Shown in pieces: positions 3,331-48,268 of a DNA stretch of 64,000 nt. Source of the DNA: Polytrichum commune (lineage: Eukaryota; Streptophyta; Polytrichopsida; Polytrichales; Polytrichaceae); NCBI GenBank assembly GCA_950295325.1, contig OX485803.1, positions 59,721,554-59,785,553 on the forward strand, given 5' to 3'. Below the pieces are notes generated by a model. The model did not search any database, was not told the DNA's origin, and worked only from the letters and a program-made list of their open reading frames with translations. Position 1 is the stretch's first letter, and every line of letters starts with the position of its first letter. The position numbers and the translations under genes were made by a program.

Positions 3331-4660
3331 CTAGTGGAGATGGATCGAAGGTTACCGCTTCTTTATTTGTACCACACAATTTGGTAGACTCAGTCATCAA
3401 TAAGATATCCAACATGACTAGAGCAGTGGATAAATGGCAATGTTACTTTTTGGGTAACTACAAGTTTGACTAGTTCCAGGTGTGGGACCCAACACGCTCT
3501 GGCAAAGAAGCCACATTTATGTGGTCTATTTGGCTCAAGGCAACTGCAATCAATGAATGGAGGGCACAAATTGCCTTGGCATCCACCTTTAAGCAATTTG
3601 TGTTTTGCCTACCTCACACGAGTAGGTCAATTAAACATTAGTTCTAGGATTGCATTCAAGCACGGAGAGCTTGGCGATGGGCCACTTTCATCATGCATGA
3701 ACTTTGCGGGGTTTGTACTGGTAATTATGATAGCTTCCATTGGAAATGAACCCTTTTTGGAGAGAGGACTCCTAAGAAGTTTGTCAAGAATATGAAGATT
3801 TAGCACCTTCGTTGGGGCATTACTCTTTTGACTATATGGATTGAGCGGAATGACCGGGTGTTCAACCAAGAACAACGACATGAATCTAAGGTCAAACACC
3901 TCATTTGGAATAATCTCATTTTGTATGGCAAGCTCATATGGGAGAGGGTGATTAAGTATGTGGAGATTAACACCTATTTGATCGAAGCCCACTTCAAAGG
4001 CTTCAACAAAACTTGGGGGTACTAGGAACATCCTTTGTAGACGTGACAATTTAAAAATAAGTCGGAATTGGAAACATCAATGTATGTAGGTAGTTTGTCA
4101 TGGTGGTTATAGTAGAGGCGCCTATTCCTGATCAAGACCCCATCAACAATCTGTAGGGTACCGGAATTTTGATAAGGTTGGAACCAATAGTGCCATGACA
4201 TATGTCTTTGAGTGCTAAAGTGATGAGGAATGAGTGGTTCAAATGAGCGCTTATGGGAGACTCTAAACATTGGTAACATGTTCAGGTCAACTTTATGGCT
4301 CCAAAAATTCACAATAATTTCAATTTGAGGAATAAAATTACTAAAATCTTTAAAGTCCCACCCAATTTCTATCTTCCTACATGGGAAAAATTTGCACCAA
4401 CTTACATTTCTCCAAATATTGTGCAAAATCTCTTAAATTATCCTTTATGGGCACCTCTACTCTAGTTAATTGGTGGCTTTTGGGGTTGTCCTCGGCTAGT
4501 TGGGCAAGGGTGGTCTTTGGTTGGGTTCTTGTTACTTGGTTTGTTGTTGATGTTTACGTGGCGGTGTGACACATATGAGGGGTTCCACCTCCCCTTCAAG
4601 TGTGCGTGTCTTCCTTGGTTCTTGATGCATTTGGCGTTGGTTTGTTGGCCTTCTATCTCA
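3331..4660 (+). mobile_element. LINE (non-LTR retrotransposon) 3' end: RT zinc-binding region plus 3' UTR
   Basis: The plus strand reads as the C-terminal zinc-binding (zf-RVT) part of a plant LINE polyprotein: VWDPTRSGKEATFMWSIW, then FCLPHTSRSIKH and DCIQARRAWRW, then LTIWIERNDRVFN and a C-terminus NILCRRDNLKISRNW at 4,025-4,080. The C-x-C...H...C spacing followed by AxxxW is characteristic. In-frame stops (for example TAG near 3,646 and 3,805, TGA near 3,748) and a frame change near 4,018 show it is dead. From about 4,085 to 4,480 lies 3' UTR sequence with a second copy at 23,439-23,800. The tail to about 4,660 ends in a short A-run. Confidence 0.75.
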
Positions 4661-10273: not shown

Positions 10274-10437
10274 ATAACATTATTCAGATCCATAATTATA
10301 TTTTGTGAGACTAAGAGTATTCCATGAAATATTCTCGGATATTTTTCAAGTTCAGACTAAATGTGGAAAATATATAGGAAATTCTATGGGATATTTGTAG
10401 TTCTACAAAACACTGTTATGAATCTGAATAATGTTAT
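10274..10437. mobile_element. MITE-like element with ~24-bp inverted ends
   Basis: Left end ATAACATTATTCAGATCCAT; the reverse complement of the right end is ATAACATTATTCAGATTCAT. The 164-bp unit is AT-rich and non-coding. No clear target-site duplication. Confidence 0.65.
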
Positions 10438-14312: not shown

Positions 14313-17300
14313 TCATGCCTGATAAAAAAGTTGTTTGCTTCGGAACTCGTGAGAAGCTCCTTCCCCGGCCCGTTGCATTGTCCCTGACCTAAGGTGGTGC
14401 GCCTTGTCTTGTTTCTCAACTGATTCCTTTTGCCAAGGAAGGTCTTGGAATTTTTCATCCTCATCTTCTGAAGTAGTATTTCCTGGAATAATTCCACCCA
14501 CAAAAAAGGAACGCAGTATAGCTGCTGCTTTTGCCCGAATCTCAGCCCATACCTCCTCACTGTAGTCTGCACTGCGAGGAAGGATCAACACATTCGGCAT
14601 TTCCCTAACCTGTTTCAGAAAAAAAAAACTTATAATGCATTAATGACTGGCAATATGGTGAGGGCTCCTTTAGTGCGTTCATGTAGACATATATAATCAC
14701 AATCATCACTGACATGTTTGTCCCCCTTGGCATGTTGAAGTTAAGATAAATGATCCCACTGACAAGATCATAGTGACACCAGGTTTAAGTTGCTTCCAAT
14801 TTATATGTATGTCACAGAGAATGTTACATTCCATCAGAGGATATGTGCCGCAGAATAAACAGTTGCATAAACGTTTTGAAATTGCATCATTTGAAAAACT
14901 AACAAACTATGTGGTTTACAGAGGATGTTTGTACCCAAGCTTCAAGCCATTGAGGGCCTTCAATACCATCTAGTGCACAGCCTGCAACTGTGCCACTGAT
15001 TAGTGCTTGCTTCAATGCACAATCATCCACAAGGTGACTACTACTGGTATTCACCACCACCGCACCTGCCAAAACATTCCCCCACCATTCAATTTTGTTG
15101 CAGATCAATTTCTATCAAATCGCAAAAAGACATGTTCAATCCAACATTTAATGGCATACTGGTGATCAGTAAACTTCAACCATGCTCATTAAGCTTGACC
15201 TGATCATAACTTTTTTGAGTAGTGTTAGAAAGGCCCTTTTTTAATTTGAGCTCAAGGTCAATTATCGTCATGGAAAAGCTGGAAATTACTTTTTCAGTGG
15301 ACAATGCTGAAGTGTAACATACCTGGTTTAATATGTTGTAGACTATCAGAATTGATAAGCTGTACAGTGTCATTTGTGAGTGCACAATGAAGGGATACTA
15401 TGTCACTATTTGAGAGCAGGTCCTTGAAAGTATCGACTTTCTTTGCTCCTTCAGGGAAGGCTCTCTTCCTAGGCTGATCAATCCTTGCCTGACAGGTGAG
15501 TTTCACATGAACACTATTAAGAAGCCTTGTCACATGCCTCATCACTAAGTCATTCATCACTGTGTGACTCTAGACATTATTCCAACAATCACATCGATAA
15601 TTCTTGAAAGCCTGAACACTAACATATGGATCCCCCCACTTACCATATTCTTGATTGCAATTTGTAACTAAACTGTGCACATTTCTCCTGAGCAGAGAGA
15701 AATGTCAATAACTTTCATTAATGATGGGGTAGTCTGAATCAAAGCAAAGCCCTTCAATTCGACCGCACAAGAATGATCAGAGGAATTCTATAAGTATGCA
15801 ACACAAGCTCTCTGTAGACAGATGCAACGTGCAGTATGGGAGCTAAGGACAAGGCTAGAAGAATAAGACTATTAGGTCATGTGTGCATTCCTTGGGCAAC
15901 CAAGGCCATGATGTGGTTTTTCTTGTGTTAGGCACACTAGATATGATATTTAGTGTCACCAAATTCTAATTGTCTTGCCCAATACTAATTGTAAACCGCA
16001 GTGTAGTGTCACCAACACTAAATGTTAACCCAACATAATTTGTCATTCCTTGTAAATTATTTGGGGGATTATAGATTAACAGTGTTGCAATTACTGTCAC
16101 TTACCAAGTGATTTCGCATCCAAATTTCAATCATCCATGACAATATTTCGTCACAGGTTGCTGACAAGAGAAGGTAGGGTCATTTGGCCAATGGATGAAC
16201 CCATCCATCATCCATGACAATAATTGTTCACTTATTCATAAGAAGTGTCATCCGAAAAGTTACCAGTGACATAAAATACCATATGACACTAAATATCATA
16301 TATTAGTGTAGTAGTTGTGTGACCTTTTCCTTGGCGATTATGCCTCTGCTTTTTCCTTGGAAAACATAGGCATAATCTTGGAAACCACTACACCATTTAT
16401 GGTGTTTAGTGTCACTTACTGTTTGGAGTTACCAAGTAAAGATGTTAATGTTCTATAGTGTCCAAATAACCAATTTGACCTTTTTTGGTAAAATATGAGA
16501 TCTGTAGTAGAAAGTTATAGCTCAACGTAACTCCAAATAGTAAGTGACACTGAATACCATAAATGGTGTAGAGCTTAGTTGAACACAGCGTGTATATATA
16601 TATATATATAAGGAATGCATAAGGAAGATAAGAAGGGACAGAAAAGAGGGGAAAATTACAACGAAGGACGAGGAGAGGAAGGAAGGGTGTAAGGGATGGA
16701 GGGGAGGTACATTTTACTTGTTTTTCTGTAGTCATCGTCCCAATGATGTGACACCTCTGTAGAATTTTCTTTCTCTAAGTATTGGGATAGTGGTCAGCAG
16801 AGTGATAATTAAGTAGAGGTGAAATTTATAATGAAATGCAATGAAAAGCGAACCAGCGAAGGACCTCGCTATTTACAATGATGTGCGCATTTCAAAATGA
16901 CCAGAAGACTTCTGAAGTATGCAAAAACAAGCTCTGTAGATAGATGTGCGTCGAACCATCTGTTATAATTATAAACAAAGTAAACCAGCAGAAGAAGACC
17001 CAGCTGTTGAATTAAATAAATAAAAGGTTCACATGAAAAATTTCAGCAGGTAGGTTTGCCATGCTAAACTCACCTCCTCCTCGGGGTCGAAATATATGAC
17101 CTTCATTCGAAATGCGAGGCTTCGACTTGCAACTGCGCATGCGGATGCCGTGGCACCCACAATCCCAAGCACCATCCCTTTGGACCGCCGCATTCCTCTA
17201 CACGAAGCATGCATGTTTCCCAGCCACCCTGCAGATGCATATCCATGAGAGGCCAGCACATGAGTGTGCCTCAAAAGCCCCAGCAACAATGCCATCACCG

Positions 17301-17733
17301 TATCGGCAATCTCTTCGGCTCTGCCACTGTCTACATGCACCAGCTGCAACCCTAACTCACTTGCCAAGGCAGTGTCGACTGTCTTGTCTGTGCAGCTCAA
17401 AGTGAGGATTAGCTGCCATGGTTGCAACCGTCTTTGCGCAGCACGTGGAAGATATGCCAAAGAGTGGAGCAAGACCGCACCTGCTGCCTCAATTTTGCCC
17501 TCCGCAACTTGTGCTAAGCTTACATGCTCGATGGTTGCCACGCCCCTTAGGGCTACTTCTTCGAGAATGCAGTCTGGTAAACAATTGAGGGCAACCACGG
17601 AAGGCAGTCCAGATGATGCCTCTTGACCATTTCCAATGCTGGCAGCATCCGGTTCAGATGTCAGTGCGAGTGTGCTAATCTTCTCAACCACACCTCTTTT
17701 CTTCTCTGTTTTAGGGTGATGTACCTTGCCCAT
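14313..17733 (-). CDS. AN: ANGUSTIFOLIA / CtBP-like protein (D-2-hydroxyacid dehydrogenase fold), 4 exons
   Basis: Exons: 17733-17074, 15488-15323, 15065-14935, 14609-14313; 417 residues; phases 0, 1, 0. The ATG at 17,733 is the first in frame after an upstream TAG. The product matches plant CtBP homologue ANGUSTIFOLIA: LHSLAYLPRAAQRRLQPWQL, the degenerate NAD motif GIVGATASA with SRSLAF, the DPEEE end of exon 1, LHCALTNDTVQ and QHIKPG, then CALDGIEGPQWLEAW and VLILPRSADYSEEVW. The Arg and His catalytic positions of CtBP dehydrogenases are replaced (NTSSS; PRSADY), as in plant AN, which acts in microtubule organisation and cell shape rather than as a confirmed dehydrogenase. The C-terminus after FFVGGIIPGN is only about 60 residues (SEDEDE and on), whereas Arabidopsis AN is about 636 residues; no further exon is visible downstream. 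Intron 1 (1.6 kb) holds two MITEs. Confidence 0.88.
15935..16311 (+). mobile_element. MITE family A, copy 1 (AN intron 1)
   Basis: Ends are inverted copies of a tip close to CTACACTAAATATGATATTT; each tip is itself almost palindromic (ACACTAAATAT / ATATTTAGTGT). The 377-bp interior is shared with 28,483-28,842 and, in reverse orientation, 37,192-37,575 (words CCAACACTAAATGTTAACCC, CATCCATGACAATATTTCGT). Non-coding. Confidence 0.85.
16388..16571 (+). mobile_element. MITE family B, copy 1 (AN intron 1)
   Basis: Left end CTACACCATTTATGGTGTTT with AGTGTCACTTACT; the right end is its inverted counterpart (AGTAAGTGACACTGAATACC with ATAAATGGTGTAG). Inverted repeats are about 45 bp in a 184-bp element. 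The tip resembles family A, so the two may share a transposase source. Confidence 0.85.
16596..16611. repeat. (TA)n microsatellite
   Basis: A short run of alternating T and A within AN intron 1. Confidence 0.9.
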
Positions 17734-18090
17734 AGCTGGATGATGACACTCTTTCACCAGTGAGAGAGGTCCACTGCTCTAGGCTTGATATTTATATGTG
17801 TCAACCATGACTGCTGAGATGAGATACTCAAACTGTGCCCATTGTAGCATAACTGCACACTCGCATGTCAATAAAGATCGAAAAAAAATGATGAGATAAA
17901 CATATTATCGCAATAAGAATCTAATGTCCATCCCCATGGTGAGACGAGCAGATTGCCAAAGTCTGGCATAATTGAAGGAACCCTGGACTCTGAAGAGACG
18001 ACACCGTATGGAAATGATGCGCTAGCCTCCCCGGTCTTCCTTGCAGCGGCCACAATGCCAGCTGATTTTCTCTGGTAACAACCTTATGCT
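17734..18090 (-). other. Upstream / probable 5' leader of the AN-like gene
   Basis: No competing ORF of quality; an in-frame TAG precedes the ATG. Probably 5' UTR and proximal promoter of the minus-strand AN-like gene; the transcription start cannot be placed. Confidence 0.4.
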
Positions 18091-19190: not shown

Positions 19191-19396
19191 CAAGTGATAT
19201 TTCATCCAAATTCCAATCATCCATGACAATATTTCATCACAAGTTGTTGACAAGAGAAGGTAAGGTTTTGGCCAACGGATGAAATCATCCATCGTCCATG
19301 ACAATATTTGTAAACTTATTCATAAGTAGTGTCACCCGGAAAGTTACCATAATGACATTCGATACCATATGAAACTAAATATCATATTTGATGTAG
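19191..19396 (+). mobile_element. MITE family A, 5'-truncated copy
   Basis: Matches the right half of family A (TCATCCAAATTCCAATCATC, GACAAGAGAAGGTA, CATCCATCGTCCATGACAAT) and the right tip, degraded to ATATTTGATGTAG. The left half is missing. Confidence 0.8.
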
Positions 19397-19926
19397 CTAC
19401 CCCCATCTTCTCAAATCCGGGTCAATCTACTAACCTCCTTCTCCAAGTTAAAACCTCCTCCTCCTACTAAAAGTGGTATACAATCCTTTAGTGACCGGCA
19501 CTTGTAAGTTTAAGATTCTTTATTGAGCGTATGGAAGCCTAGCGGCCCATGTTCACGGCCCCCACTTTATAGTGGACTGCCATAATGTGGTTGGATGGCG
19601 GCTTGTGCTTAACTACATGCAAACACCTCCAACCCATTATTATCTAGAATCTAGTGGGTGAGTGGCCTACTCACCCTAAAACCAACACCCCACCCAAAAC
19701 CAACACTTATAAACACCTCCCAAATGCCAACACTCTACTACCTTGAACCATTACCCATGATGTAGGAGTCCCCAAGCTCACGGAGTGTTGGTTTCAGGTG
19801 CCATTAGTGGCCCCACCTTATACCAGCCTCCACTACCTCCATGTAGGGTAAGTAATGGGCTCCACTCTATCTCAAGTCGGTGTAGGGTGGCTTGTTGGTG
19901 CCTATTCTAGACATTCTATAGTAAAG
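19397..19926. other. Gene-free flank of the foldback element
   Basis: No coding potential. The last bases before the insertion (TATAGTAAAG) resemble the LINE 3'-UTR copy at 4,107-4,118, so the foldback transposon probably landed in a LINE copy. Confidence 0.4.
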
Positions 19927-20160
19927 GGGGGCTGCCTAAATACCCCCGACGAGCGTTGTAGCTGTCAGGGCGGCGGGCAAGGGCAGCCCCAAAAAAGCCA
20001 GAGGTTCGGACACCCAACCCTGGCCTAATCCCCCGACCCTGTCCACCCGGTGTCCAGCCCGGCCTCCAACATGGATTCCCGCCTGACCTCCAGCCTGGAC
20101 AGACGCCCGGTTTTCCGGCCGGCTTCCAGCCTGGCTGCCCGCCCCGCCCTCCACCTTTAC

Positions 20161-20545
20161 TAGTGCACCCGCCTTTCATTTGAATTTTTTTGGTTTTGCT
20201 ATGCTCATGGCTGTTGCAATGATGTGAGGAGCTTTGGTGTGTTTGTCAAGAACATGGCGGCGGCCATGCATATGCACTAGATCTTGGTTCTGAGGTTGTA
20301 GGATAGGGCGCTGCTCCAAAAAATGGAATGGATCCATGAGAGGGACACAATTTAGTGCACCCGCCTTTCATTTGAATTTTTTTGGTTTTGCTTTGCTCAT
20401 GGTTGTTGCAATGATGTGAGGAGCTTTGGTGTGGTTGTCAAGAACATGGCGGCGGCCATGCATATGCACTAGATCTTGGTTCTGAGGTTGTAGGACAGGG
20501 CGTTGCTCCAAAAAATGGAATGGATCCATGAGAGGGACACAATTT
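20161..20545 (+). repeat. 192-bp tandem duplication in the left arm
   Basis: Two units start TAGTGCACCCGCCTTTCATT at 20,161 and 20,353. The mirror duplication is present in the right arm at about 22,827-23,203, so the duplication preceded or accompanied formation of the inverted arms. Confidence 0.9.
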
Positions 20546-20559
20546 CATGGCATCCGGCC

Positions 20560-21240
20560 AAGCACATGAACCACATCTTGGATCTGAGGGCGATGGACAG
20601 GGCGTTTTTTGTTTAGGGTTGCAATGGATCCAAGAAAGGGAGATAATTTTGTGGTGGTAGCGAAGCCCATGGACTGGATCTTGGATCTGAGGGCGATGGA
20701 CAAGGCGTTTTTGGTTTAGGGTTGCAATGGATCCAAGAGAGGGGAACATTTTCATGGGAGTGGCGGAACACATGAATTGGATTTTGGATTTGAGGGCGAT
20801 GGACAGGGCGTTGCTAGTTTAGGGTTGCAATGGATCTAAGATAAGGATACAATTTCATGGCATGCGACCAAGCACGTGGACTGAATCTTGGATATGAGGG
20901 CGATGGACAAGGCGTTTTTGGTTTAGGGTTGCAATGGATCAAAGAGAGGGACACAATTTCATAGCATGCGGCCAAGCACATGGACCAGATCTTGGATCTG
21001 AGGGCGATGGACAAGGCGTTTAGGGTTTGAGGTTGCAATGGATCTGAGAGAGGGGCACAATTTTATGGCATGCGGCCAAGCTCATGGACCAGATCTTGTG
21101 TTTCAGGGCGTAGGACAGGGCGTTGATCCCCTGAATGTAATGGATCCAAGAGAGGAAAACAATCTCATAACATGCGGCCAAGTATATAGACCAGATCTTG
21201 TGTTTCAGGGTGTAAGACAAGGCGATGATCCACTGAATAC
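20560..21240 (+). repeat. ~104-bp tandem repeat array inside the foldback element
   Basis: Seven units; the anchor GATCTGAGGGCGATGGACA or a variant occurs at about 20,581, 20,685, 20,787, 20,891, 20,995, 21,097 and 21,201. Each unit also has GGTTGCAATGGATCCAAGAG and GGCATGCGGCCAAGCACATG. Open frames across it on the minus strand are repeats of this unit, not a gene. Confidence 0.85.
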
Positions 21241-21484
21241 AATGGACGGAAATGAGGGAAATCCTTTAAGAATATGGAATTTTGGAGGTGACCCTGAACT
21301 TGCATAGGAGCGATCTACAGTCCATGGACACAGTGGCTACAATGCATATGCAATGGATCTTGGGACAGGAGATGATGCAAACACTTCGGAATTTGATTTC
21401 ATGGCTACTCACAGACTTGGACGATGACCACCTGGAGGATATTTAGTAGATCACAACGTCAACCATGAAAGCCATGCATCTCAC

Positions 21485-21862
21485 CTGAATACAAATGATG
21501 CAGATTTGAATACGCCAGAGTTTATTTCTGTGATGGAAGTACAAATTTCAATCCAAGAGAAGAAGATCCGTCCGTCATGGAGGAATTTGTACCAGAGAGT
21601 CTTGGCATCTGTCCAAGTACCACCTCCTGGCCCTTTTGACAGGACAGATTTAAAGTGGGAGGCCAAGTCCAATCACGGCAATGGTAACATAAAGGATACC
21701 CAGAAGGCTACAATTCATTGGGCTCGGCTAGATGATTTTTTGGAAGGAGAAATGTCAACCCGGCAGTTCCCTTGCACCTTTCATGAGGAATCTAGGCAAT
21801 GCATAAAGAGACAAGACAGGAAGCAAGTACGTGCCGAATCTGCAATTCAAAAGATCAAGTAA
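21485..21862 (+). pseudogene. ORF fragment in the foldback element, unknown function
   Basis: An open frame of about 118 codons from the ATG at 21,506 (in-frame back to about 21,485) ends in TAA at 21,860-21,862. The text is protein-like (RPSWRNLYQRVLASVQVPPP, FPCTFHEESRQC) with Cys/His residues. I do not recognise the family. Its place, ahead of a zinc-finger-like segment at 22,160-22,665 in the same element, suggests an exon of a transposase-associated gene. Confidence 0.4.
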
Positions 21863-22159
21863 CGATTCTTGCGTTTTTTTTTAGGTGTTTTGGGTTTAGG
21901 GTTTAAACATGTAATGGAATTTGCATTTATCCCCTTCGAATTTTGGTTTTTAGATAGCATTGAAGCCTGTCATACACGCATCCTCTGCATGACCTAGTCC
22001 ATATTGTGAACATGTGGTCTATCACGTCGTGAGAGCTTGAACTAACCATGAGACGTGTCCTCCAATGTAGTTATTGGTGCCAATATGGGCCAATGGACTA
22101 CACTAGACAATACAAGGTAGAGGTCCAGAAGGTGTTTGCACATGTGCTATTGGAGAAAA

Positions 22160-22665
22160 AAAATCAACATCTCATCGACAAGCATTACAGAGGGCGCAAA
22201 AACTTGTAGAAAAGGCTCAGAAGGACGCAACATCAAAACCACAATGTCAGAAGAAAGGAAGGACAGAGGCTGTTCTAGATCTCAATGAGGACGATCCTGA
22301 TGAGGATCTCCAGGATCAAGCCAGGGTGCAAGATGCATAGGCCAAGCTCCTTCAGGCACAAACCCTCATCCAGGCATCTACGAAGCCTAAGAGGAAAACT
22401 AGGGTTGGTAAGATCCAGGCTGGAATGTCCATCAAGAGAGGATGTCAATGTAATTTTGTTGCCAAACAATTACTTCTAGATGAATCTCTTTGCACAATTC
22501 ATTTTCATTGCATGACACATACTAATAAGGACGGAAAGCCCTGTCATGGCACTGAGTTTGGAAGGCAGAGGGCTGGCTTATCGGGTCGTTTGTCCACGAC
22601 AACAAAACAATGGATAGCTGATACACTTAGATCTCGGAAGTCGTCTGCTCATGTTATGGCAGAGC
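22160..22665 (+). pseudogene. Zinc-finger-like transposase N-terminal fragment
   Basis: One frame runs from KLVEKAQKDA through LDLNEDDPDEDLQDQ, is broken by a TAG at 22,338-22,340, and continues through KPKRKTRVGK and RGCQCNFVAKQLLLDE to THTNKDGKPCHG before entering the right arm. The C-x-C followed by clustered His and Cys (HFHCMTH, CHG) resembles the WRKY-GCM1/FLYWCH-type fingers at the N-terminus of Mutator-like transposases. The DDE catalytic region is absent, so the copy is non-autonomous. Confidence 0.45.
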
Positions 22666-23438
22666 CCTCAGATCCAAGATCCAGTCCATGGGCTTCGCTG
22701 CCACCACGAAATTGTCTCCCTTTCTTGGATCCATTGCAACCCTAAACAAAAAACGCCCTGTCCATCGCCCTCAGATCCAAGATGTGGTTCATGTGCTTGG
22801 CCGGATGCCATGAAATTGTGTCCCTCTCATGGATCCATTCCATTTTTTGGAGCAACGCCCTGTCCTACAACCTCAGAACCAAGATCTAGTGCATATGCAT
22901 GGCCGCCGCCATGTTCTTGACAACCACACCAAAGCTCCTCACATCATTGCAACAACCATGAGCAAAGCAAAACCAAAAAAATTCAAATGAAAGGCGGGTG
23001 CACTAAATTGTGTCCCTCTCATGGATCCATTTCATTTTTTGGAGCAGCGCCCTGTCCTACAACCTCAGAACCAAGATCTAGTGCATATGCATGGCCGCCG
23101 CCATGTTCTTGACAAACACACCAAAGCTCCTCACATCATTGCAACAGCCATGAGCAAAGCAAAACCAAAAAAATTCAAATGAAAGGCGGGTGCACTAGTA
23201 AAGGTGGAGGGCGGGGCGGGCAGCCAGGCTGGAAGCCGGCCGGAAAACCGGGCGTCTGTCCAGGCTGGAGGCCAGGCGGGAATCCATGTTGGAGGCCGGG
23301 CTGGACACCGGGTGGACAGGGTCGGGGGATTAGGCCAGGGTCGGGTGTCCGAACCTCTGGCTTTTTTGGGGCTGCCCTTGCCCGCCGCCCTGACAGCTAC
23401 AACGCTCGTCGGGGATATTTAGGCAGCCCCCAGTAAAG

Positions 23439-23800
23439 GCACCCATTCCCAATCAAGACCCCAACATCAATCTATAGGGTATTGAAATTTCAATCAGGCA
23501 TGGACTGAATTTAAATCTTGCTAGGATTGAATTTCGATCTGGTGGAATCAATAGTACCATGTCACATGTCATGGTTTTGAGTGTTGAAGTGAGGAGAAAC
23601 GATCGATTATGGCAGACTCTAGACATTGATAATATGTTCAGACCAACTTTAGGTCTAAAAAAATTAGAGTGATTTCAATTTAAGGAATAAAATTACCAAA
23701 AATTTACAGTCCTCTTTGTTTCTATCTTTATACACATGAAAAATTTGCACCGCCTTATACTTCTCTATATTTGGCAAACAAATATCTTAAGTGATCGATT
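23439..23800 (+). mobile_element. LINE 3'-UTR fragment, second copy
   Basis: Follows the right target duplication and matches 4,113-4,480 (ATCAAGACCCCA-CATCAATC, GCAGACTCTAGACATTG, AGGAATAAAATTACCAAA, GAAAAATTTGCACC). About 75% identical by eye with small insertions. Confidence 0.7.
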
Positions 23801-24787
23801 ACAGGCGCCTATTTTTATTCATGAAGCCAAGGAGGTAGACCCACAAAGCACAAAGGGGGTCAGAATCCGGGATGCAAGGTGACGGTTTTGCAACCGAACT
23901 AGTTGGGATCATGGAGGTGGCCATGTGGCCTTCTGCACCATTACTATTTTGGCTTTGATATAGCTTGGGTCTAGTACACAACTATGTTGTGTTGGTTCTA
24001 GTCAATGAAGGTGGGGGTCCTCATCATTTGCAAGGTCGTCATATACAGGGCCTAGGAATTGGTTTAAGGAAGCTAGTGGTTTTGACCTTAAATATTAATC
24101 AAATAATTAATTGAGGCTAAATTCTTTTGTTGTTGTTATACCTATGTTTGGCCCAAAGGTTAATATGAATAAATTTTTATATATCAACCAAATAGTCATA
24201 TGTATGTGTAATAACTTAAAGTGTTGGTTTAAGCATCCTCTACGTTGTAACATGTCTACAATTACTAGTGTGGCGACTGCTGAATGGCTCCTACCATTAG
24301 GGATCACTTCATAGTTGATTTGGCCAGTGAGAGCCATTGGCTGTAACTAATGTTGGTATGAACCATTGACCAGTGACCCGCACCAATATGTGTGGGTGGG
24401 CTATTAGTAACTGGGAAGGAGACCCATTCTAATAGTTAGGTAGCTAAGGCGGACTCATTCAAGGGACGTTTACACTCAATGAACAAAGAGAACCAACCTT
24501 TGATTGAGTTTGAGGAATGATTGGTTGAAATCCAAGACTTCATGGAAGTTACCCATCTTTTTAGAGGAATTTAGAGAATATACCTCAAATTAATAAACAA
24601 AGAGCCAAAAGATGTCAACATGTAACTAGTTGGACTTGGAAGCACTAGGATCTCAACCCATTACATTCAAAAATCTCCCAGGCACTATTTAAGCTTACAT
24701 TGGGGGTGGGGGTAGTGGTTTCCTTTCTTTGGTTCTTTACATGGATAAGATAAATGTTAACCATTCCTACGACTATATTTGACCCAT
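23801..24787. other. Gene-free stretch
   Basis: Only short random ORFs. No gene, RNA or repeat recognised. Confidence 0.5.
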
Positions 24788-28482: not shown

Positions 28483-28842
28483 CTACACTAAATGTGATAT
28501 TTGGTGTCACCAATTCTAATCGTCTTGCTCAAAACTTATTTAAAACCGTGGTGTAGTGTCACCAACACTAAATGTTAACCCAACATTATTTATCATTCCT
28601 TGTAAACAATTTCGGGGATTATAGATTTACAGTGTTGCAATTATTGTCACTCACCAAGTGATTTTTCATCCAAATTTCTATCATCCATGACAATATTTCG
28701 TCACAAGTTGCTGACAAGAGAAGGTAGGGTATTGGCCAATTGATGAGCTCATCCATCATCCATGATAATATATGTTCAATTATTCATAAGAAATGTCATC
28801 CGAAGATTTACCATATGATGCTAAATATCATATTTAGTGTAG
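28483..28842 (+). mobile_element. MITE family A, copy 2
   Basis: A 360-bp full-length copy with tips CTACACTAAATGTGATATTT and the inverse of CTACACTAAATATGATATTT. The interior matches 15,935-16,311. Confidence 0.85.
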
Positions 28843-28859
28843 TGTTTCCTTGTCCTACT

Positions 28860-31712: not shown

Positions 31713-34700
31713 ATGGGGGCCGAGATTAATGCGTTTGAGCAACAAGCCCCGCATCCTCCTGTGAAGGTAAAGTTTGTATGTGTATAATTTACATGTTAAA
31801 CATACAGGGTATAGAGCACTGAAGCGGCTTCATTAATATTGAGATCTGGAGGATAGTCACCATGATAAGAAATGAACAAGTGTGCTGTAATTGCAGGACT
31901 CCAAACTTTCTCGAAGTAAAGGAAGCTGATAGTTTTTCATTTTGAGACGTCAGAAGCTTATATGTTACATGGGATTGCATGGTTGGGTCCTTGAAGTACA
32001 TTCACTACAGGAATTGCAAGGTTGTACCGGATGGTTAATTTGAAGTCTATGAATGTGGACTGGAGATTTATAGTAGATCATAAAACCATCTAACCTAGCT
32101 AGTGGAACACGTGATCCTTGTAGTGATCGGAGGAAATCCGTTTCTTGAGCAGAAATCGAATAAGATTTGTTCTCACAAGATTTAAGAATGTTACATTTGT
32201 TTCATCTTAGGAATTTACAACAGTGACATTACTACAATAGTGGGGACGTCAACCTTTCAAGTATGGGCATGTTACAAATGACATGAATGAGCTGTGTTTC
32301 CAAGATTCAGCCTTAACTCGGTCAGGAAGGGCCCATTGTTAAGGTTATTGGGAACGAGCCTTGCCATTGAATGCTTAGAAAATCAGCATCAATGGTCCAT
32401 GTGGTATTAATGCTCTTAGTTGGCCTAGTTTGAGGATGTTTTGGAGGAGTGGCAAGTGTCAATGTCCTCACAGAAGTTTATTGAGATATAGCACTTTCAG
32501 AGAAGCCCCTTTTGCCTCTTGTCTAATTTCATGTTATTCTAGGTTTAAGCCGTTTGCACAGCGAATGAAAGGCGATTTCCGGTTAGGGCTACTCTCTCCT
32601 CTCACCAAAAATCTTCAAACTACTATGGTTGTGCAACATATTCATGAAAAGAAAAAAACACCGATGTATGAGTATTCTATGTGCAGGACCATTTCTGGGC
32701 ATGTGTGCTGTGCATGTTGCTCGGGACAACGTTCCTCTTGCCCTGGCAAGTGGTCATCACCGTCCAAGATTACTACTATGTTTTATTTCCTGTGAGTACA
32801 CCAACACAAATTACAGTTGCAGTTCTTAAGGGAGTAAGCGGAATGCAAGTAGCAACATTGGTAGCAATTTTGCTATTACTGGCTTTAGGTAATGTTTTTA
32901 CCAGTGGCTCTGACTGTTGATCTGAAATGTAGCACTGCCTTCTTAGTTTGAGTTTAGAAGGATCTCTAATATGGAATAATTTTATCTGTCTGGTGATGGG
33001 CAGCATTACCACCCTTCTCGAGTTTTCACATTGATTTACGAACCCATGGCACTGCTCTTGACCTTCACCTTCACCTGGTACGAGGCACGCGTCAGCTCCC
33101 GGATGCGAGTCCTTGTTGGCTATGGCAGTTTCATTACCATCCTACTGTTGATGATTTTAGTAAGTGACATTCTTTCACAATATCCTCTCATACTCATCAT
33201 CAAATTATTGTCCTCCATCGATCATTACATCCAAGGTAGATATAGGTCTTAAATGGTTACTTTTTCCAAACAGCCGACTTCTCCTGGGATATGAAACACG
33301 CAATTGGTAAGTGATGGTTAGCAAGTCCAAATCAAAGCTGTAGCCACTTTCCTCATAATTTTGGAAGCTCACATGCATATCTTGTTCATTATGAAAGTGA
33401 GGATTCTTGTGCTAATTAAATGGTCATATAGCTCTCCCTCCCCCCAATCAAGTTGATTGTAGAATGGTTATTTTGAGCATGTCATTTTCGTATCCGTTCT
33501 TGGAGCCACACCAAACCACATACCACTCAAATATTTGCATCCTAATAAGAAAATCAACCAAATAAGGGTTGTCTACCTTAATTGATCTAATTGCAAGTTG
33601 CCGCGGACAACTCCATAAGCTGTACTTAACATGCTAATGGTTGCACATACTACAAGAATTGAGGTTCAATAAGGTACACGTGTGTTATTCGGATACTTTT
33701 CTCTCTACACCCGCTTCTTGTAGGACATGAAACACACAATTAGTGTGAGATGATTTGCAAATCCAAATCGTGTCTGTAGCCATTTGCCTCATAATTCGAG
33801 AGCTCATATGACTATCTTATTCACTATCAAAGTGAAGATTCTTCTGCTCTTGAGGTGGTCATATACGTCCCCCTATCATGTTGACTGTTGAGCCAAGAAT
33901 AGTCAGCATATTTTTAGCATGCAGTCCCATCTCTTTTAAACACATGTCTTTTTGGTGTCCGTTCTTAGATCCACACCTAACCACATATCACTCAAATTTA
34001 GTAATCTCTGTTATTGCTATGTTGGATCTAGGCACGCCTACCTTAGCTAAGTTAACACAAGCTATTTAAATGAAAGATGGAATGATCCTCAATTTGCTTG
34101 GAAGCAGATGTCAAACTCTCAGTGATAGATGATGGCAATTATGAAACTAATTCTAAGATATTTGATCCTCCAGGTGGATCTCGCAACAGCAGGTCATGGA
34201 AGTTTGGGGGCTTACATAGCTTTGTGTTTCATTATTGCTGCACTGGGAAGTTTTGATGGGGTTGCACAAGGTGCACTCCTTGGTGATCTCGCATATATGA
34301 AACCAATTTATATGCAGGTTCTAATTTGCTCTCTCTTCCACTTTTTTCTCTGTGCATGCTAGATCCATGAATTAAACGCCACTCTTGACCCGCTTCAAAC
34401 AGGAACTGAATGTGGTGTTGTTTCTTTTCTTTTCCTTTTGAATGTTGCAGGCCTACGTTGCTGGAATTGCAATGTCTGGGTTAGTTGCAAGTGTATTGCG
34501 CTTGGTCACAAAGGCCGCGCTTGGTAACAGTCACTCAGGACTTCGGAAAGGCGCCTGTGAGTTTCCATTCTTTAAAAAAAAAAATTTGGTTCAGTATGGG
34601 ATATATTATAGAGACATATGATATAATTTAATGTAGCAAGCTCAGATATGGCAGCTGACATCTGTTGATCTGATGTTTGGTGCGTGTACCAATGTTGGTC

Positions 34701-36806
34701 TGGTATGATCTTTTATTGATACCATTTGGGTTTCTGTAATGAGGAATTCACTTTCTTTCATACCAGTAGGGTATGCGTATTTGATGGTATTTTTGTATTT
34801 GATACCATTCGAGTCTATTTAGTAAGCAAGAACTCAAATAATAACTCGGGTATGCAAAGATTCTCTTACCCTGACATAGCCACCAAATTTCAATATTTGT
34901 TTGGTTTCACAATTTTGATGCCCACAGGTAGGTTCTTTGTTACCATTATTGATTTGAATATTGAAACCATGCATTCACCTTGTATACCAGACCGACACCC
35001 ATGCACACCTTCATGTAAATCTGTGCAGTGACTTTTTTCGCGATTACAAGCTTTGCACAAATCGCTGCGTTTTTGCTCTACGCCTTTGTGTTTCCCAGGT
35101 TGCAAGGAGTAAAAGATTACCGATTGAAGGCACAACAACAGGGCTCCTGTACAGTTGTTGATGATCTTGCTGCTGTTGGGATACACACAGACCTCAAGGT
35201 ATGTTTTGTTTATTTCCACTGAACAGATGATGTTGCTCCGAGGAAAAACTTCTCAAATGCCAGGTGATGTGAAAGAATTAAGATCTCAATGAGAGACATC
35301 GAGATGTTCAATGGACGATGTAAGAACTTGAGTGTTTTGTTTGCTTCCAGCCATGCCAAACTCGACAGAATTGGAGTCAAATTGCATTGAAAAAAAGGAA
35401 TAATGAACACTCAAAAGACCAGGTTTCTTGTCATCTTTTTACGTCATGTCACATGAATTTACAACTCTCAACTTACTGGCACACAAGAATCACAATTCTA
35501 GTCAATGGTTATTAGAATTGGGACCCCTATTTTTTTTAAAAATAAAAAATCAGCTACCAATACGCCCAATCAACAGTTGTTAAAAAAATTGCAAAGTGAG
35601 AAATGCTGATTGTAAAAATGTGGTTTCCCACTGGCAACAAATCCCTGTACCTATTTCTGACCATAGTTTTTTGAATGCCTGCAGGACGCTGAAGCTGGAA
35701 AGGTTTCACGCCTGAGTATATTTCAACTTTGTGCCCAGAATTGGGACTCTGCAGTTGGCCTGATGGTTCTATACGCAGTGTCGGTGTCTATAATTCCAGG
35801 GTTCTTGTACGAAGACACTGGGCACCACAAGCTAGGGTCATGGTAAGTGGATTGAAAATTACTGGAGATTTCTTAGAATACCTAAGAAGGTGCTCTATTT
35901 CATCTTCAATAGTGCCGAAATGTACTTTCCACCCAGGATTCAAATGGTCTCATCCAATCTAGGAACAACATGTGGCAAAGCTGAGGAGAACACAATGAAA
36001 CCTTTGTCAGAGTAGAGAGCCCTCCGCAGTATGTTTGGTATTTGAGGATCAGACAGTTCTCATTAATCTCACTACAATGGAACTGTAAATTTATGTCTGT
36101 GAAGATGGCTGACATACAAGTAGCTGTTTGGGTGGACAGGTATTCATTGGTTCTGATCACCTTATACAACTTGGCGGACCTCATCAGCCGTTATTTCCCA
36201 CTTCTCTACCTCTGGGATTCACGGAAGGGATTGTTCACTGCATGCCTTTCTCGTGCTCTTTTCATCCCATGCTTCTACTTCACTGCCAAATATGCCGACG
36301 CAGGCTGGATGATTTTCTTGTGTGCAGCCCTCGGCCTCACTGGTGGATACCTGACTGCCAGTGTCTTCATGACTGCGCCGCGCGGGTATAATGTATGCAA
36401 TCCACTGATAGAACCTGTTGGATTGTCGCATTGAATGATCTCCACTTAATGCAAATAGATAGTACCTGCTCTCTTTCTCCTCCCTAACTTGTTGAATTTG
36501 GTCGCATTTGTAAGTTAATCCAACAACTTCGTGAATTAACCCTAAACTCTCATCTCTAAAACCCTTCACCCCAATTCCTGCAGAAACTTTCCATTGCTTT
36601 CTTCAGTTGGGTGTAGCTTACGATGAGCTCTCTATTACTCTATGTTTCTGTCCAATGCAATATTGAAAAATAAATGCTTGTGCGGACACCATTTGCAGAG
36701 CCCGGAGAAATACGCGCTTGGAAATATCTTGGTGTGCGCATTGAGTATTGGCCTTGCAGTTGGTGCTGTTGCAAGCTGGCTTTGGCTAATTGGCATTGGC
36801 TGGTAA
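31713..36806 (+). CDS. Equilibrative nucleoside transporter (ENT), tandem copy 1, 9 exons
   Basis: Exons: 31713-31766, 32687-32791, 33004-33159, 34174-34317, 34451-34556, 35029-35198, 35685-35842, 36140-36392, 36699-36806; 417 residues, phases 0,0,0,0,1,0,2,0. ENTs move nucleosides across membranes, in plants at the plasma membrane or tonoplast. Family marks: TM1 segment FLLPWQVVITVQDYY; HYHPSRVFTLIYEP after it; AQGALLGDL in a mid helix; the basic-Gln loop YRLKAQQQGS; IIPGFLYEDTGHH; SRALFIPCFYF; APRGYN then SPEKYALGNILV and the C-terminal LIGIGW. The length and about 11 hydrophobic segments fit the family. The short first exon (MGAEINAF and on) is predicted from frame and a good donor only. 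The TM1 residue after PW is Gln rather than the usual Asn. Introns carry dispersed repeats (introns 3 and 5). Confidence 0.9.
33277..33612 (+). repeat. Dispersed repeat family E, copy 1 (ENT copy 1 intron 3)
   Basis: Shares ordered words with 33,715-34,065 and 60,525-60,945: ACTTCTCCTGGGATATGAAA, GCAA(G/A)TCCAAATC, CTGTAGCCA, CTCATAATT, AAAGTGA(G/A)GATTCTT, AAATGGTCATATA. Non-coding. Confidence 0.7.
33715..34065 (+). repeat. Dispersed repeat family E, copy 2 (ENT copy 1 intron 3)
   Basis: Direct repeat of copy 1, about 440 bp downstream in the same intron; the 3' part (AACACATGTCTTTTTGGTGT, AGATCCACACCTAACCACAT) also matches about 4,877-4,930 and 45,908-45,960. Confidence 0.7.
34715..34975 (+). 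repeat. Dispersed repeat family H, copy 1 (ENT copy 1 intron 5)
   Basis: Matches about 39,985-40,310 in the same orientation: TACCATT(T/C)GGGT, AA(A/T)GATAA(T/C)TCGG, TATGCAAAGATTCT / TATACAAAGGTTCT, CCTGACATA / CTTGACATACCC, GGTTCTTTG(T/A)TACCA. Non-coding. Confidence 0.6.
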
Positions 36807-37191
36807 ATCCACTTTGATTAGAAGAGTATTAGAGTCCGGATGGCAAGTTGGTGTATACCAGTAATTTATTCAGCAGCTACGCTAGCAAATTTAGATCTCA
36901 AAGAGAGCTTAAACTTTAGTACAAAAGAAATAAGAAAGCATTTGATCCTTCCTGCAAAAACGGTCCAAGCGACGAGTCTTTGTTATTGTCATTCTTCAGT
37001 GAGGTGTCAAAGAATAGAACTACATCTATTGGACCCCCTATTGGCTAAGTTATAATATCCTCAAGAGTTCCTTCTGCATATTCTTTGCCCAATCCTCCTG
37101 GCTCTTAATTAATACCATGTACGGCACTGATTTTTGGATGTGTTAGTTTATTCTGTGGTCAATAATAACTCCACATTGTATAATTGTTGAA
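36807..37191. other. Gene-free stretch after ENT copy 1
   Basis: Likely 3' UTR and terminator region of ENT copy 1; no sharp poly(A) signal is assigned. Confidence 0.35.
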
Positions 37192-37575
37192 CTACACTAA
37201 ATTGAATATGATATTTAGTGTTGTATGCTATTTTATGTCACTAAGGTAACTTTTTGGATGACATTTCTTACGAATAACTGAACAGATACTGTCATGGATG
37301 ATGGATGAGTTCATCCATTGGTCAAAACTCTACCTTCTCTTGTCAGCAACTTGTGATGAAATATTGTTATGGATGGTTAAATTTTGGATGAAAAACCACT
37401 TGGTAAGTGACAATAAATTGCAACACTGTAAATCTATAATCCCTGAAAATATTTACAAGGAATGACAAATATTGTTGGGTTATCATTTAGTGTTGGTGAC
37501 ACTACACTGCGGTTTACAATTAGTTCTGAGCAAGACAATTAGAATTGGTGACACTAAATATGCTATTTAGTGTAG
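37192..37575 (-). mobile_element. MITE family A, copy 3 (inverted)
   Basis: Full-length 384-bp copy in reverse orientation between the two ENT genes; tips CTACACTAAATTGAATATGA and the inverse of CTACACTAAATAGC. It has an extra few bases in the left tip. Confidence 0.85.
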
Positions 37576-38784: not shown

Positions 38785-39343
38785 CCTCGGTTATAGGGGT
38801 TATAGGGTTTTGACCCTCGATTATATCGGCAGGTTTGAAAAAGTTGATGATAGGGCTTGCTCATGCTCATGCTCATGCTCATGTCCTAGCTTCACTCGTT
38901 GGTTCCAGCATGGAATTTTTAGGGGCTTTGTTCGTTTGCAAAACTATTATGTTCAAAAACTAGTTGACAATAGGATTCCACTCAGAACTCCTGGCTTTGA
39001 GGTCACATCTACGATGTGATTCCATGAATACAATTGACTGAAATATGGTGGCCAACATCAATCCTTGAGGCGTCAATCCCGTGTATTTGATTTTGAGTCC
39101 TGGATAGATGAACATGGTTCAGTCGCAGGTTGTTGAATGAGTGAATGAGTATAATATGGTAAGATGAACATGCGCAGAAGGATCCAGTACTACTTCTCAT
39201 ACTTTGAGTGAGCTCCATTGAGTACTTGGAGCAATGTAGTACCACTCATTTCCATACCAGATATCCTCTATTTGGAATAACACACGTTTGGGCAGTATCA
39301 TGTGTATAGTGTGGGGATTGGCTTACTTAATTATGACTACGCT
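38785..39343. other. Gene-free stretch
   Basis: Contains the short (GCTCAT)n run; otherwise nothing recognised. Confidence 0.5.
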
Positions 39344-39654
39344 GATTATCCCAATTAGTGCATGTTGATATTCGGAGTTACGCAGTTCAATAACGCCTTA
39401 CTCAGGAGTTCAATTTCTACTAACGAAAGTTGAAAAGGTTTCTATTTAGACATGTTCAACATGTTACTACTCGGAGTTACGCAATGCTATAATTGCTATT
39501 CAACAAGAATGTAATATTTTACCAAGCAAAGTCATGTATGTTTTATAATGTCCAAACGAGCTATTGAGCTTTCGTTAGTAAAAATTGAACTCTTGAGTAA
39601 GATGTTGTTGCACTGTGCGACTCCGAATAGTAGCATGCACTAATTGGGATAATC
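39344..39654. mobile_element. Foldback MITE (family C) with ~83-bp inverted ends
   Basis: Left GATTATCCCAATTAGTGCAT continuing through ATTCGGAGT, CTTACTCA(G/A)GAGTTCAATT and CTAACGAAAG; the right end is the inverse. The 311-bp element has words also found in family B (GGAGTTAC, ATAATGTCCAAA), hinting at common ancestry. Confidence 0.8.
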
Positions 39655-39984
39655 AATGTAGTAAGCAGTCACAATCCTACTATGTAATCAAGGAGTCCTG
39701 CATCGGGATCGTGTTGGCAAGCTGTAAAATGATGGCAAGTGTGGGAGGGCAATCTATATATGCAGTTGGATGGAAAACTAATTTGATGGTGTGAGATTAT
39801 TGCATACACCAACCATCATAGGAAGGTATTTACACCTCAGGTGTCTTAGCTAGCACATCATGTGGAGGACTATTAAGAAGCTCGTGTTACGCACGTACTA
39901 GTCCTTCAATTTTACACACGACAACTTGAATTAAGTCATTTGTGCCCCATGCCTTTTGTGTCATCGATATATGGTGGAACCATT

Positions 39985-41628: not shown

Positions 41629-44600
41629 ATGGGGGGCGAGGTGGTAGCATCTGAGCAGGAAGAATGTCCACGCTCTCCTGCAGGAGTGAAGACGGTATGT
41701 GAACATAATTTACGAATTTGATCATCATCTTTCGAGTGGTGATGTCACTGAGTAGCCTGTGTAGTCTTTTGGCGGCCTTTGGCGCCAGTGGAATACTTCT
41801 TAGGTTATCCGGATACCCTAAGAATGATGGCATTTGTTGCACTCCTCTTCAGTTAGTTAAATCTTGGTATATAGGTTGGAAAATTCGGCTTCATGTCCGA
41901 GGATATGTAGGCAACAATGAGATGTCGACTAGTGAGATGAGAGCTTGCCACTTGACCTTGATTCTTGGATATTCAGCCTTGAAGCTAGAATAGAAAGGAG
42001 GTGTTCTTTCAAGGCTCAAGAATGTTAGGATGTTAGCTGAACTACACGAAATGATGAGACATTGTATAAGAGAAAACAAATTTCACTCGGAATCACTACA
42101 TCTCTTCAGACTTAGCTTTATGTACCGAATGACACGAAAAGAGTCTGAAGTTTTATGTCAGCCGCTCCAGCTGCTCCGATGAAGCGATGTGCCATTATTT
42201 TTGTGGTGATGCAACAAAATCCGACGGATTTTGGTCCCCAAACCATTGTGGATGATGACATGAGTTCGTCTACAAGAATCTCTTCAGCCATCTCGCCTGC
42301 ATGACTATAGGAGAGGTTTGAGGAATTAAGGCTTGTTCTGTGTGCAGGACAATTTTTGGGCATCTGTGCTGTGCTGCTGGTTACTTGGAACGGCGTTCCT
42401 GTTTCCCTGGAATGCGATTCTCACCATCGGAGATTACTACTACGCTGTATTTCCTGTGAGTAATGCAAATGGTGCATTTGGTGCATTTGGTGCATGCTAA
42501 GAAACACCGTCTCCAGTAATGGTTGACTGTAAACCCTAATCCTCAAGAGCACTGCCTTTAAGGTATGAATGGGTTGAAATTTTGGTAAACGATGAAGAAA
42601 GTTACATATACTTACTACATGACCAATTATTTTGTCTCTCTAACATTGCATTTCATGTATGCAGCATTACCATCCTTCTCGAGTTTTCACACTGATTTAC
42701 GAACCAGTGGCCTTGGTGTTCACGTGCATCTTCACATGGTACGAGGCTCGCTTCAGCTCCAGGCTTAGGGTTTTGCTTGGCTTTGGTGGATATCTCGTCT
42801 TCCTACTGCTACTAATTGTGGTAAAGTGCAACATTCTTCAAAACTCATGATGCTCTTGTACAAGTTCATGGGTAAAGTTCATCTGTGTAGCACACATTCT
42901 AGTATTTGAAGTGTCGATGAGATACCGTTGCAGAGATTGCTGAAAAAACATCTGTGCTAGTTCCACTGCAAAAACCTCTTAAATCCATTCGTAATTAGCG
43001 GTACAAACTCAGGGGATATAATTGTCACACCTCTACAACATAATATATGAGTAGGAATGGGTCAAAGTGTTGAGATCAATGGTTAGGTGAAATGCAATGC
43101 AATCTGATCCTCGCTGCAGATTCCATGTTATCAACATTCTTGGGATTTTAAGGCTTAGATGTAGCACCTCAGAATGCAAGTTGAGCAATGTTCAACGCTG
43201 AGTTGATTTTGAGACATAATCTATCCTTTGGGCTTCAATATCTTTTCAGTGCCAACCCACGATTTGACTAGTGATTCCTTTAACACTGATTCGACTCACA
43301 GTCCCATCTTCAACTTAGAACTTGTAAATATAGAATGTTTAGACTATGTTTAGTAGGCATTAATTTAGGGGATTGTTAAATCGACCACACATTGGTTGAA
43401 ACAGCCACAGAGATGCGTCACACAGTCACATGACAGGTCAAATTTTGAAGAATTCTAGTTGTAAGTTGAAATGTAAAGGAAGAGGATGCATGATTGATAT
43501 TTTTCTCCTCTTCGTGTATGCAATGAAAAATCAAATTTTGCCAGGTCATGTGACCGCACGTCACATCTTTGCGGTTGTCTTAATAAACTATGTGGTTGAT
43601 TTAACAATCCCCTTAAATCAATGTTATAGTTCGATGTGATTGAATCAATGTATAGTTATTGTTGATAGGTATATGATTCTAGAGGTTTGTGATGTAATGT
43701 CTGGTTATATTGTGAATGGTGTTCTCTCGTGGCAGGTGGATTTGGCATCAAGAGGGCATGGGAGTGTATGGGCTTATGTACTCGTGTGTTTCATCATTGC
43801 CGGCCTTGGGCTTTGTGATGGAACTGCCCAAGGTGCACTTCTCGGTGATCTATCATACATGGAACCAATTTATGTGCAGGTTATCTCCCTCTCTCCATCG
43901 CATAGAGCACTTTCTTAGTTTGTCAAAATCTATCCGTTTTCAAGCAAAATATCCTCATTTTGGAGGAGAGAGCATTATGCCAACACGGAATGCCATGTCT
44001 TACAAATCCTTACCTATAATGCCCTCCACACAAGGAGAAGTACATTTTTTTTTGCAACGTAATGCACTTTGGGTTGGTGGATGTAGGATTTTCTACCACT
44101 CTTCTCGGGCTCCGGCCCTTAGGGTAGTGCCCTCAAATCCCCCAATGCCTTGCCCTCGGTGCATTACCCTATACATAAATCATTTGTTGGCTTATTCTAT
44201 GTGTAATTGTCGTGTCTTTGATATTGCACAATCCATCTCCATGTAGGCCAATGCAATTCTACTGTGCGAAATGCATTGGTCTAGCCCATAGTGCATTTCC
44301 ACTAGTGGAATGAAATTGAATAACAAAAATAAATTGGACAAAAGAAAAGCCTAGAAGAAGGGTATCATTCAATAGAACATTTCGAGGGAAGGAGGAAAGC
44401 CCAACACAAAGTGCCTTCTCATGCTTAAAATGTGAGGGGGATTCCCGTTGGTAACATGGCATGGTGCCACGGGTAGGTCACTTAGTGCATTTTAAAAACG
44501 ACGTGCGGCATATTATAGAGAGGATTAAAATCATTTGAAATAAAAATTATAAAGGAATTCCAAATAATGAAGGGGCCATTAAATGTAGACAATCCCATTA

Positions 44601-47600: not shown

Positions 47601-48223
47601 ACCGTCACAAACGTCTAAATGCAATATATTCTCCTTCATTCATCTATATTTGATATAGAAAGGTAAATTTAAACACCACCCCTAGAAGGCAAGCATACAT
47701 GAGGAGTCTCTTCACCCCAAGAGCAACGGCCACCTATTGGTGGTAGAATTGATGATTTAACTTGACTCAATCTACTTAAAAGAGGGGGTTTGAATGGTTA
47801 TCATGTGGTAGGAGGGGGCATTTGGGGGAAGCGGAGGCCCATATATTATATATTTGATATGTAGATCATATATCATCATTGATTTCACATCGCCTAAATC
47901 ACATCAAATTACAAAATTCAATCAACGCATATCAAACATAGGTTGCAATTCTAATCTTTTGTTTATTTGATTTTCCATTTACAATGTCACCTAAATGAAA
48001 GGTCTAATTTTGAGTATGTGTTGACTACTCATCACTATTTAAGTGATGAGTTAGCACTCATAAACTATCGAATCTGGAAGAAGATGTTTCAACATTAACT
48101 CAAAATAAAGTGTTGTTCACTTGCATTTTGAGATGATGCTTGCTATATCAAATCTGCAATAGGCGACATGTTCTTTAAGTGAGACATTTGGGGTGTTGCT
48201 TGTGGTTATAATCAAGGGTGAAG

Positions 48224-48268
<45 letters not shown>

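Follow-up and report, generated by a model that had tools for sequence, protein, structure and literature searches.

A probable non-autonomous foldback transposon with compound arms in the genome of Polytrichum commune

The element and its surroundings

The window analysed here, a 64-kb stretch of the Polytrichum commune genome (contig OX485803.1), contains at 19927-23431 what is very probably a genuine, non-autonomous foldback DNA transposon of about 3.5 kb, the boundaries of which become 19928-23430 if its target site duplication (TSD) is read as 9 bp and not as 7 bp. Long inverted arms with internal repeats and a TSD at the arm ends are the features by which it belongs to the foldback class. 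A foldback-type DNA transposon with compound arms had already been proposed in an earlier, sequence-only reading of this DNA, and the proposal is backed by the structure, by the TSD and by a related repeat that is free of the element. A blastn comparison of the element with the whole window (E up to 1e-3) gave matches nowhere but within the element itself; as there is a single copy in the window, its mobility is deduced from its structure. The element seems to carry no working enzyme gene of its own.

The window holds 50 open reading frames (ORFs) of at least 100 aa. Twenty proteins from this list, some of them trimmed and one of them from the element itself, were scanned against profiles, and five of the 20 reached E 0.01 or better: one with a dehydrogenase NAD-binding domain, two nucleoside-transporter ORFs, one with a retroviral polymerase SH3-like domain and one that matched perilipin weakly (E 0.0034). 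The first of these is an ORF on the minus strand at 17029-17778 with a D-2-hydroxyacid dehydrogenase NAD-binding domain (E 2.2e-5; 24.3 bits against a cut-off of 25.1), which we take to be CtBP/ANGUSTIFOLIA-like. The SH3-like domain (E 8.1e-16) is encoded at 1440-1790, presumably in a piece of a Copia-type retroelement. The two nucleoside-transporter ORFs (36135-36434 and 49360-49755) lie within colinear blocks at 32675-36805 and 42336-51109, which share 71-79% identity and are probable tandem gene duplicates. Repeats are also found around the element. A dispersed family of about 380 bp, with copies 82-88% alike, occurs at 15934-16312, 28485-28843, 37191-37573 (minus strand) and, in part, at 19191-19396, so that a partial copy stands to the left of the element. 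Four imperfect palindromes with a MITE-like look were found by blastn within the window (10274-10437, 16388-16571, 39336-39662 and 50477-50616), each about 71-72% identical to its own reverse complement.

With tips of five G at both ends, the element is flanked by a perfect 7-bp duplication, AGTAAAG, at 19920-19926 on the left and 23432-23438 on the right. With a four-G tip, one base shorter, the same bases give a 9-bp duplication in which TAGTAAAGG (19919-19927) faces CAGTAAAGG (23431-23439) with 8/9 positions matching. No other duplication was found for equal tips of 3-6 G, lengths of 6-11 bp and at most one mismatch. The 7-bp flanking duplication described from the sequence alone was thus present in perfect form, and the accompanying objection that its length was 7-8 bp and not 9 is weakened: 8 bp gave no fit, and 9 bp fits with one mismatch. 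TSD-like matches of comparable freedom arose in 201 of 200,000 random flank pairs drawn from the window. The 9-bp reading needs one mutation, which would be a T-to-C change in the right flank provided that the T of the left flank and of the related repeat is ancestral, whereas the 7-bp reading needs none and is the more parsimonious on this copy.

The flanks, once joined across the element, were found to match an element-free repeat on the plus strand at 4108-4456, in two segments: 4108-4169 (82% over 62 bp) and 4164-4456 (73% over 301 columns). The match starts ten bases to the left of the insertion point. Seven of these ten are the duplicated bases and three belong to the left flank alone; further left, no convincing likeness was seen between the left flank and this relative. 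The right flank (23432-23810) is therefore an older repeat, with the element sitting at or near its edge. As the edge of the element-free relative falls at the insertion point, it favours insertion, albeit one-sidedly.

Arms, repeated units and the order of events

The left arm (19927-20694, plus strand) and the right arm (22664-23431, minus strand) are inverted repeats of 768 nt each, and the inner end of the right arm lies within a unit of the 104-bp type described below. Their alignment is ungapped and contains 9 mismatches in 768 positions, eight of which are transitions, so that the arms are 98.8% alike (1.2% divergence); the near-identical arms of about 760 bp noted earlier are confirmed at this slightly greater length. 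The outer 234 nt are GC-rich, with 67.5% GC in the left arm (19927-20160) and 67.9% in the right. Within this tip, the 9-mer GGGGCTGCC stands at 19928 and, inverted, at 19982; its four occurrences in the 64 kb are two per arm, one at the extreme end and one inverted 54 bases inward. A copy of the motif, which was picked after being seen, arises in 960 of 100,000 shuffles of the tip region. It could be a putative binding site or an alternative cutting site. Hairpin formation by the tip was not significant (z-score -1.47, 19 of 200 shuffles folding equally well), and the tip pattern gave no match in viral_contigs, a viral collection in which a negative says little.

Inwards from the tip, a 192-bp unit is present twice in each arm, as had been proposed. 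On the left, the outer copy (20161-20352) and the inner copy (20353-20544) are on the plus strand; on the right, the inner copy (22813-23004) and the outer copy (23005-23196) are on the minus strand. The four copies are 97-98% alike, the phase of the unit being free by one base, and the two inner copies are identical. A tandem array of units of about 104 bp runs from the left arm inward on the plus strand (20452-21246), in agreement with the sequence-only reading; Tandem Repeats Finder (TRF) reported it in two rows, 20519-21200 (79% matches) and 20452-21246 (78%), and its units share 61-84% identity with a reference copy. The array extends past the arm on the left side only and the right arm stops within one such unit. 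The 104-bp units can be aligned with the inner half of the 192-bp unit (about 20260-20352), which is itself one of them; this points to one common ancestral repeat for the array and the 192-bp unit.

The differences between the copies set these events in order. The two outer copies differ from each other at three sites (20201, 20304 and 20326) and agree with each other against both inner copies at three further sites (20211, 20242 and 20311). Because the outer copies share these sites and the inner copies are identical, the unit had doubled before the arms were last homogenised. With 7e-9 substitutions per site and year, a rate which may not be that of the host, the 9 differences in 768 sites place this homogenisation roughly 0.8 million years ago. 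The element had been called recent; at 1.2% divergence the term fits the last homogenisation of the arms and not necessarily the insertion, which is possibly of another age. With units that are far more diverged, the array appears considerably older than the divergence of the arms. As to the origin of the right arm, either it was copied from the left arm, with the copied tract ending within a unit, or the array once stood on both sides and was lost on the right through a deletion that also took part of the centre.

The central region and its coding signal

Three frames on the plus strand occupy the centre: an open frame of 144 codons at 21428-21859, a second of 77 codons at 22107-22337 that ends in an in-frame TAG, and the continuation of that second frame after the TAG (22341-22663), which contains a Cys/His cluster. 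From 22664 the last runs within the right arm, where it remains open to 22745. A right arm that starts within an open frame would be expected of a transposase gene with an internal deletion or of a captured fragment.

Coding signal was measured as 3-base periodicity, scored against 2000 mononucleotide shuffles. The 77-codon frame reached 3.63 (0/2000 shuffles), and the signal was weak in the 144-codon frame (1.64; 70/2000) and in the Cys/His frame (1.69; 68/2000). A segment from 22184 to 22663, the start of which was picked by eye, scored 3.05 (1/2000), the 99th percentile of 249 window segments being 2.88. The stretch at 21247-21427 scored 2.1 (13/2000), and values of 0.67 were obtained both at 21863-22106 (1003/2000) and in the 104-bp array (950/2000). 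For comparison, the ORF with the dehydrogenase-type match scored 3.21 (0/2000) and a nucleoside-transporter ORF 0.91 (524/2000), the latter a sign that real exons can escape this measure. The length of the frames was also considered as evidence of coding and was rejected, since the longest central ORF (144 aa) was equalled in 60 of 1000 dinucleotide shuffles and in 27 of the 192 segments of the same length taken from the window.

All 20 frame segments of the centre that reach 40 aa, on both strands of 21180-22720, were searched against Pfam, six of them at E up to 10 and the other 14 (10 + 4) at E up to 1. For the frame at 22341, one scan stopped at 22664 and another, with E up to 0.05, ran on to 22745. 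None of the 20 segments gave a match at E 0.1 or better; 16 gave nothing, and the other four gave unrelated matches at E 0.12-0.46 (UPA, AAA_lid_1, EMC6_arch, HTH_micro and Rpp20), all below the curated cut-offs. Two of these values (0.21 and 0.46) came from the 77-codon frame, and the 144-codon frame had no family match. Profiles of MULE DDE, FAR1, SWIM, P-type and other transposases were likewise unmatched in the 20 segments, domains which a non-autonomous copy may lack. The profile search that had been suggested for the centre thus returned neither a MULE nor any other transposase.

The translation does contain the Cys/His cluster reported earlier, but the frame that contains it gave no match to six metal-binding patterns (C2H2, THAP, BED, CCHC, SWIM and WRKY/GCM1-type); judged by eye, this frame may resemble the finger region of MULE/FAR1 proteins. 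A pattern search for relatives of the 108-aa frame picked out 32 stretches in viral_contigs and 452 in genome_contigs, none of them confirmed; these collections consist of viruses and prokaryotes, so that negatives there say little. A sequence search of solved structures gave no match for the 144-aa frame, and the two obtained with the 108-aa frame (E about 0.9) were judged to be due to chance. AlphaFold models of two central frames, computed without an alignment, were poor (pLDDT 51.5 and 37.0). A Foldseek search with the better of these models returned 419 matches at E up to 10, the best at 0.63 and none at or below 0.001, and was discarded as meaningless. Of the captured or relic transposase fragment that had been proposed for the centre, the strong periodicity at 22107-22337 speaks in favour, while the weak signal at 22341-22663 and 21428-21859 and the unmatched profiles speak against; the identity of the centre as a transposase relic is plausible but unproven.

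Class of the element and its probable driver

The explanation towards which we lean, with somewhat better than even confidence, is that of a non-autonomous cut-and-paste foldback transposon driven by a Mutator-like (MULE) transposase, whose arms were homogenised after the doubling of the 192-bp unit and whose centre is a transposase remnant. The 3.5-kb element would have been inserted at its present site by a transposase, most likely of the MULE type, supplied in trans from elsewhere in the genome. This enzyme would bind the tips, and perhaps also the repeated units as additional sites; after cutting at the GGGG(G)CTGCC ends it would join these to a staggered target, thereby creating the flanking duplication. 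The arms would have been made alike by inverted copying or gene conversion once the 192-bp unit had doubled, and the centre would most likely be what remains, at the 5' side, of a transposase gene that has lost its catalytic part, the right arm starting inside its open frame.

A MULE driver is favoured by the availability of a 9-bp TSD reading and by the statement in PMC4079207 that the majority of foldback elements are Mutator, a similar grouping being given in PMC3169594. Counting against it are the perfect TSD of 7 bp, which falls outside the 8-11 bp described for MULEs in PMC6446971, and the unmatched transposase profiles. Against the explanation as a whole stand the uneven coding signal, the single copy in the window, the left flank, which beyond the duplicated bases has just three in common with the element-free relative, and the poor AlphaFold models. 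According to PMC3169594, several superfamilies have given rise to foldback structures: Galileo carries a P transposase, and FARE and Tm1 carry Mutator-type ones. Because the same bases can be read as 7 or 9 bp, the length of the TSD provides no ground for excluding MULEs. The MULE superfamily is favoured over others, although we do not file the element as a MULE.

FARE is a foldback family of Arabidopsis. Compared by description and not by sequence, both it and the present element are plant foldback elements, but FARE contains a transposase with a MULE domain (PMC3169594), for which the present element gave no match. Tetris of Drosophila virilis, likewise compared by description and not by sequence, is apparently also non-autonomous, with long arms in which an outer flanking domain is followed by tandem units (about 220 bp in Tetris) and with a variable centre of no apparent coding capacity; it differs in its animal host and its TSD of 8-10 bp, according to the account in PMC4079207. 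Duplicated segments in long arms at both ends are also described for MULEs with multiple long terminal inverted repeats (TIRs), which are mostly non-autonomous and in some cases hold gene fragments (PMC3310237). In these, whole or near-whole TIRs are doubled, whereas here the doubled 192-bp segment excludes the tip. Tm1 and Muta1 are presented as Mutator elements with composite, foldback-like arms, but with short arm repeats (12-15 bp), TSDs of 8-10 bp and animal hosts (PMC3169594, PMC5225508).

The best surviving alternative retains a MULE-type element and takes its centre to be a piece of a host gene, captured as in a Pack-MULE, or else non-coding filler instead of the remnant of its own transposase. 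We consider this unlikely, yet deserving of attention: plant Pack-MULEs with repeated arm segments are on record in PMC3310237, the central frames match no transposase profile and periodicity is weak in two of the three, but these frames match no host gene profile either. Distinctly less probable is a driver outside the MULEs that makes 7-bp duplications, as Galileo of the P superfamily does in Drosophila. The perfect 7-bp duplication with five-G tips at both ends agrees with it, and Galileo offers a precedent: as reported in PMC3573991, the two TSDs are identical in most of its copies, each non-matching flank in its 12 chimeric copies is 7 bp long, its arms extend to about 1.2 kb, one group has arm tandem repeats of about 210 bp, and the arms were lengthened by recruited inner sequence. 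Against this stand the 9-bp duplication with one mismatch on the same bases, the Cys/His frame without a THAP pattern and the absence of a P-type or other transposase profile match, and Galileo has a Drosophila host. More doubtful still would be a plant foldback family with true 7-bp duplications, driven by a non-MULE transposase whose zinc-cluster region lies beyond current profiles. Finally, a local inverted duplication or an assembly artefact would agree with the single copy in the window but is very improbable, as the arms end at the flanking duplication, the array runs past the arm on the left only and the related element-free repeat spans the right flank and the duplicated bases.

A full-text search of open-licence papers, which cannot match DNA sequence, found no record of the element. 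In kind it is an already known, well-preserved but ordinary example, each of its structural features having precedent. The long, near-perfect inverted arms may give rise to hairpin RNA and so feed small-RNA silencing. The interest of the element lies in the nested history of unit doubling, arm homogenisation and subsequent divergence. Taken without further copies, this amounts to routine repeat annotation; if more copies of the family exist, it would illustrate cleanly how the arms of foldback elements lengthen and remain similar.
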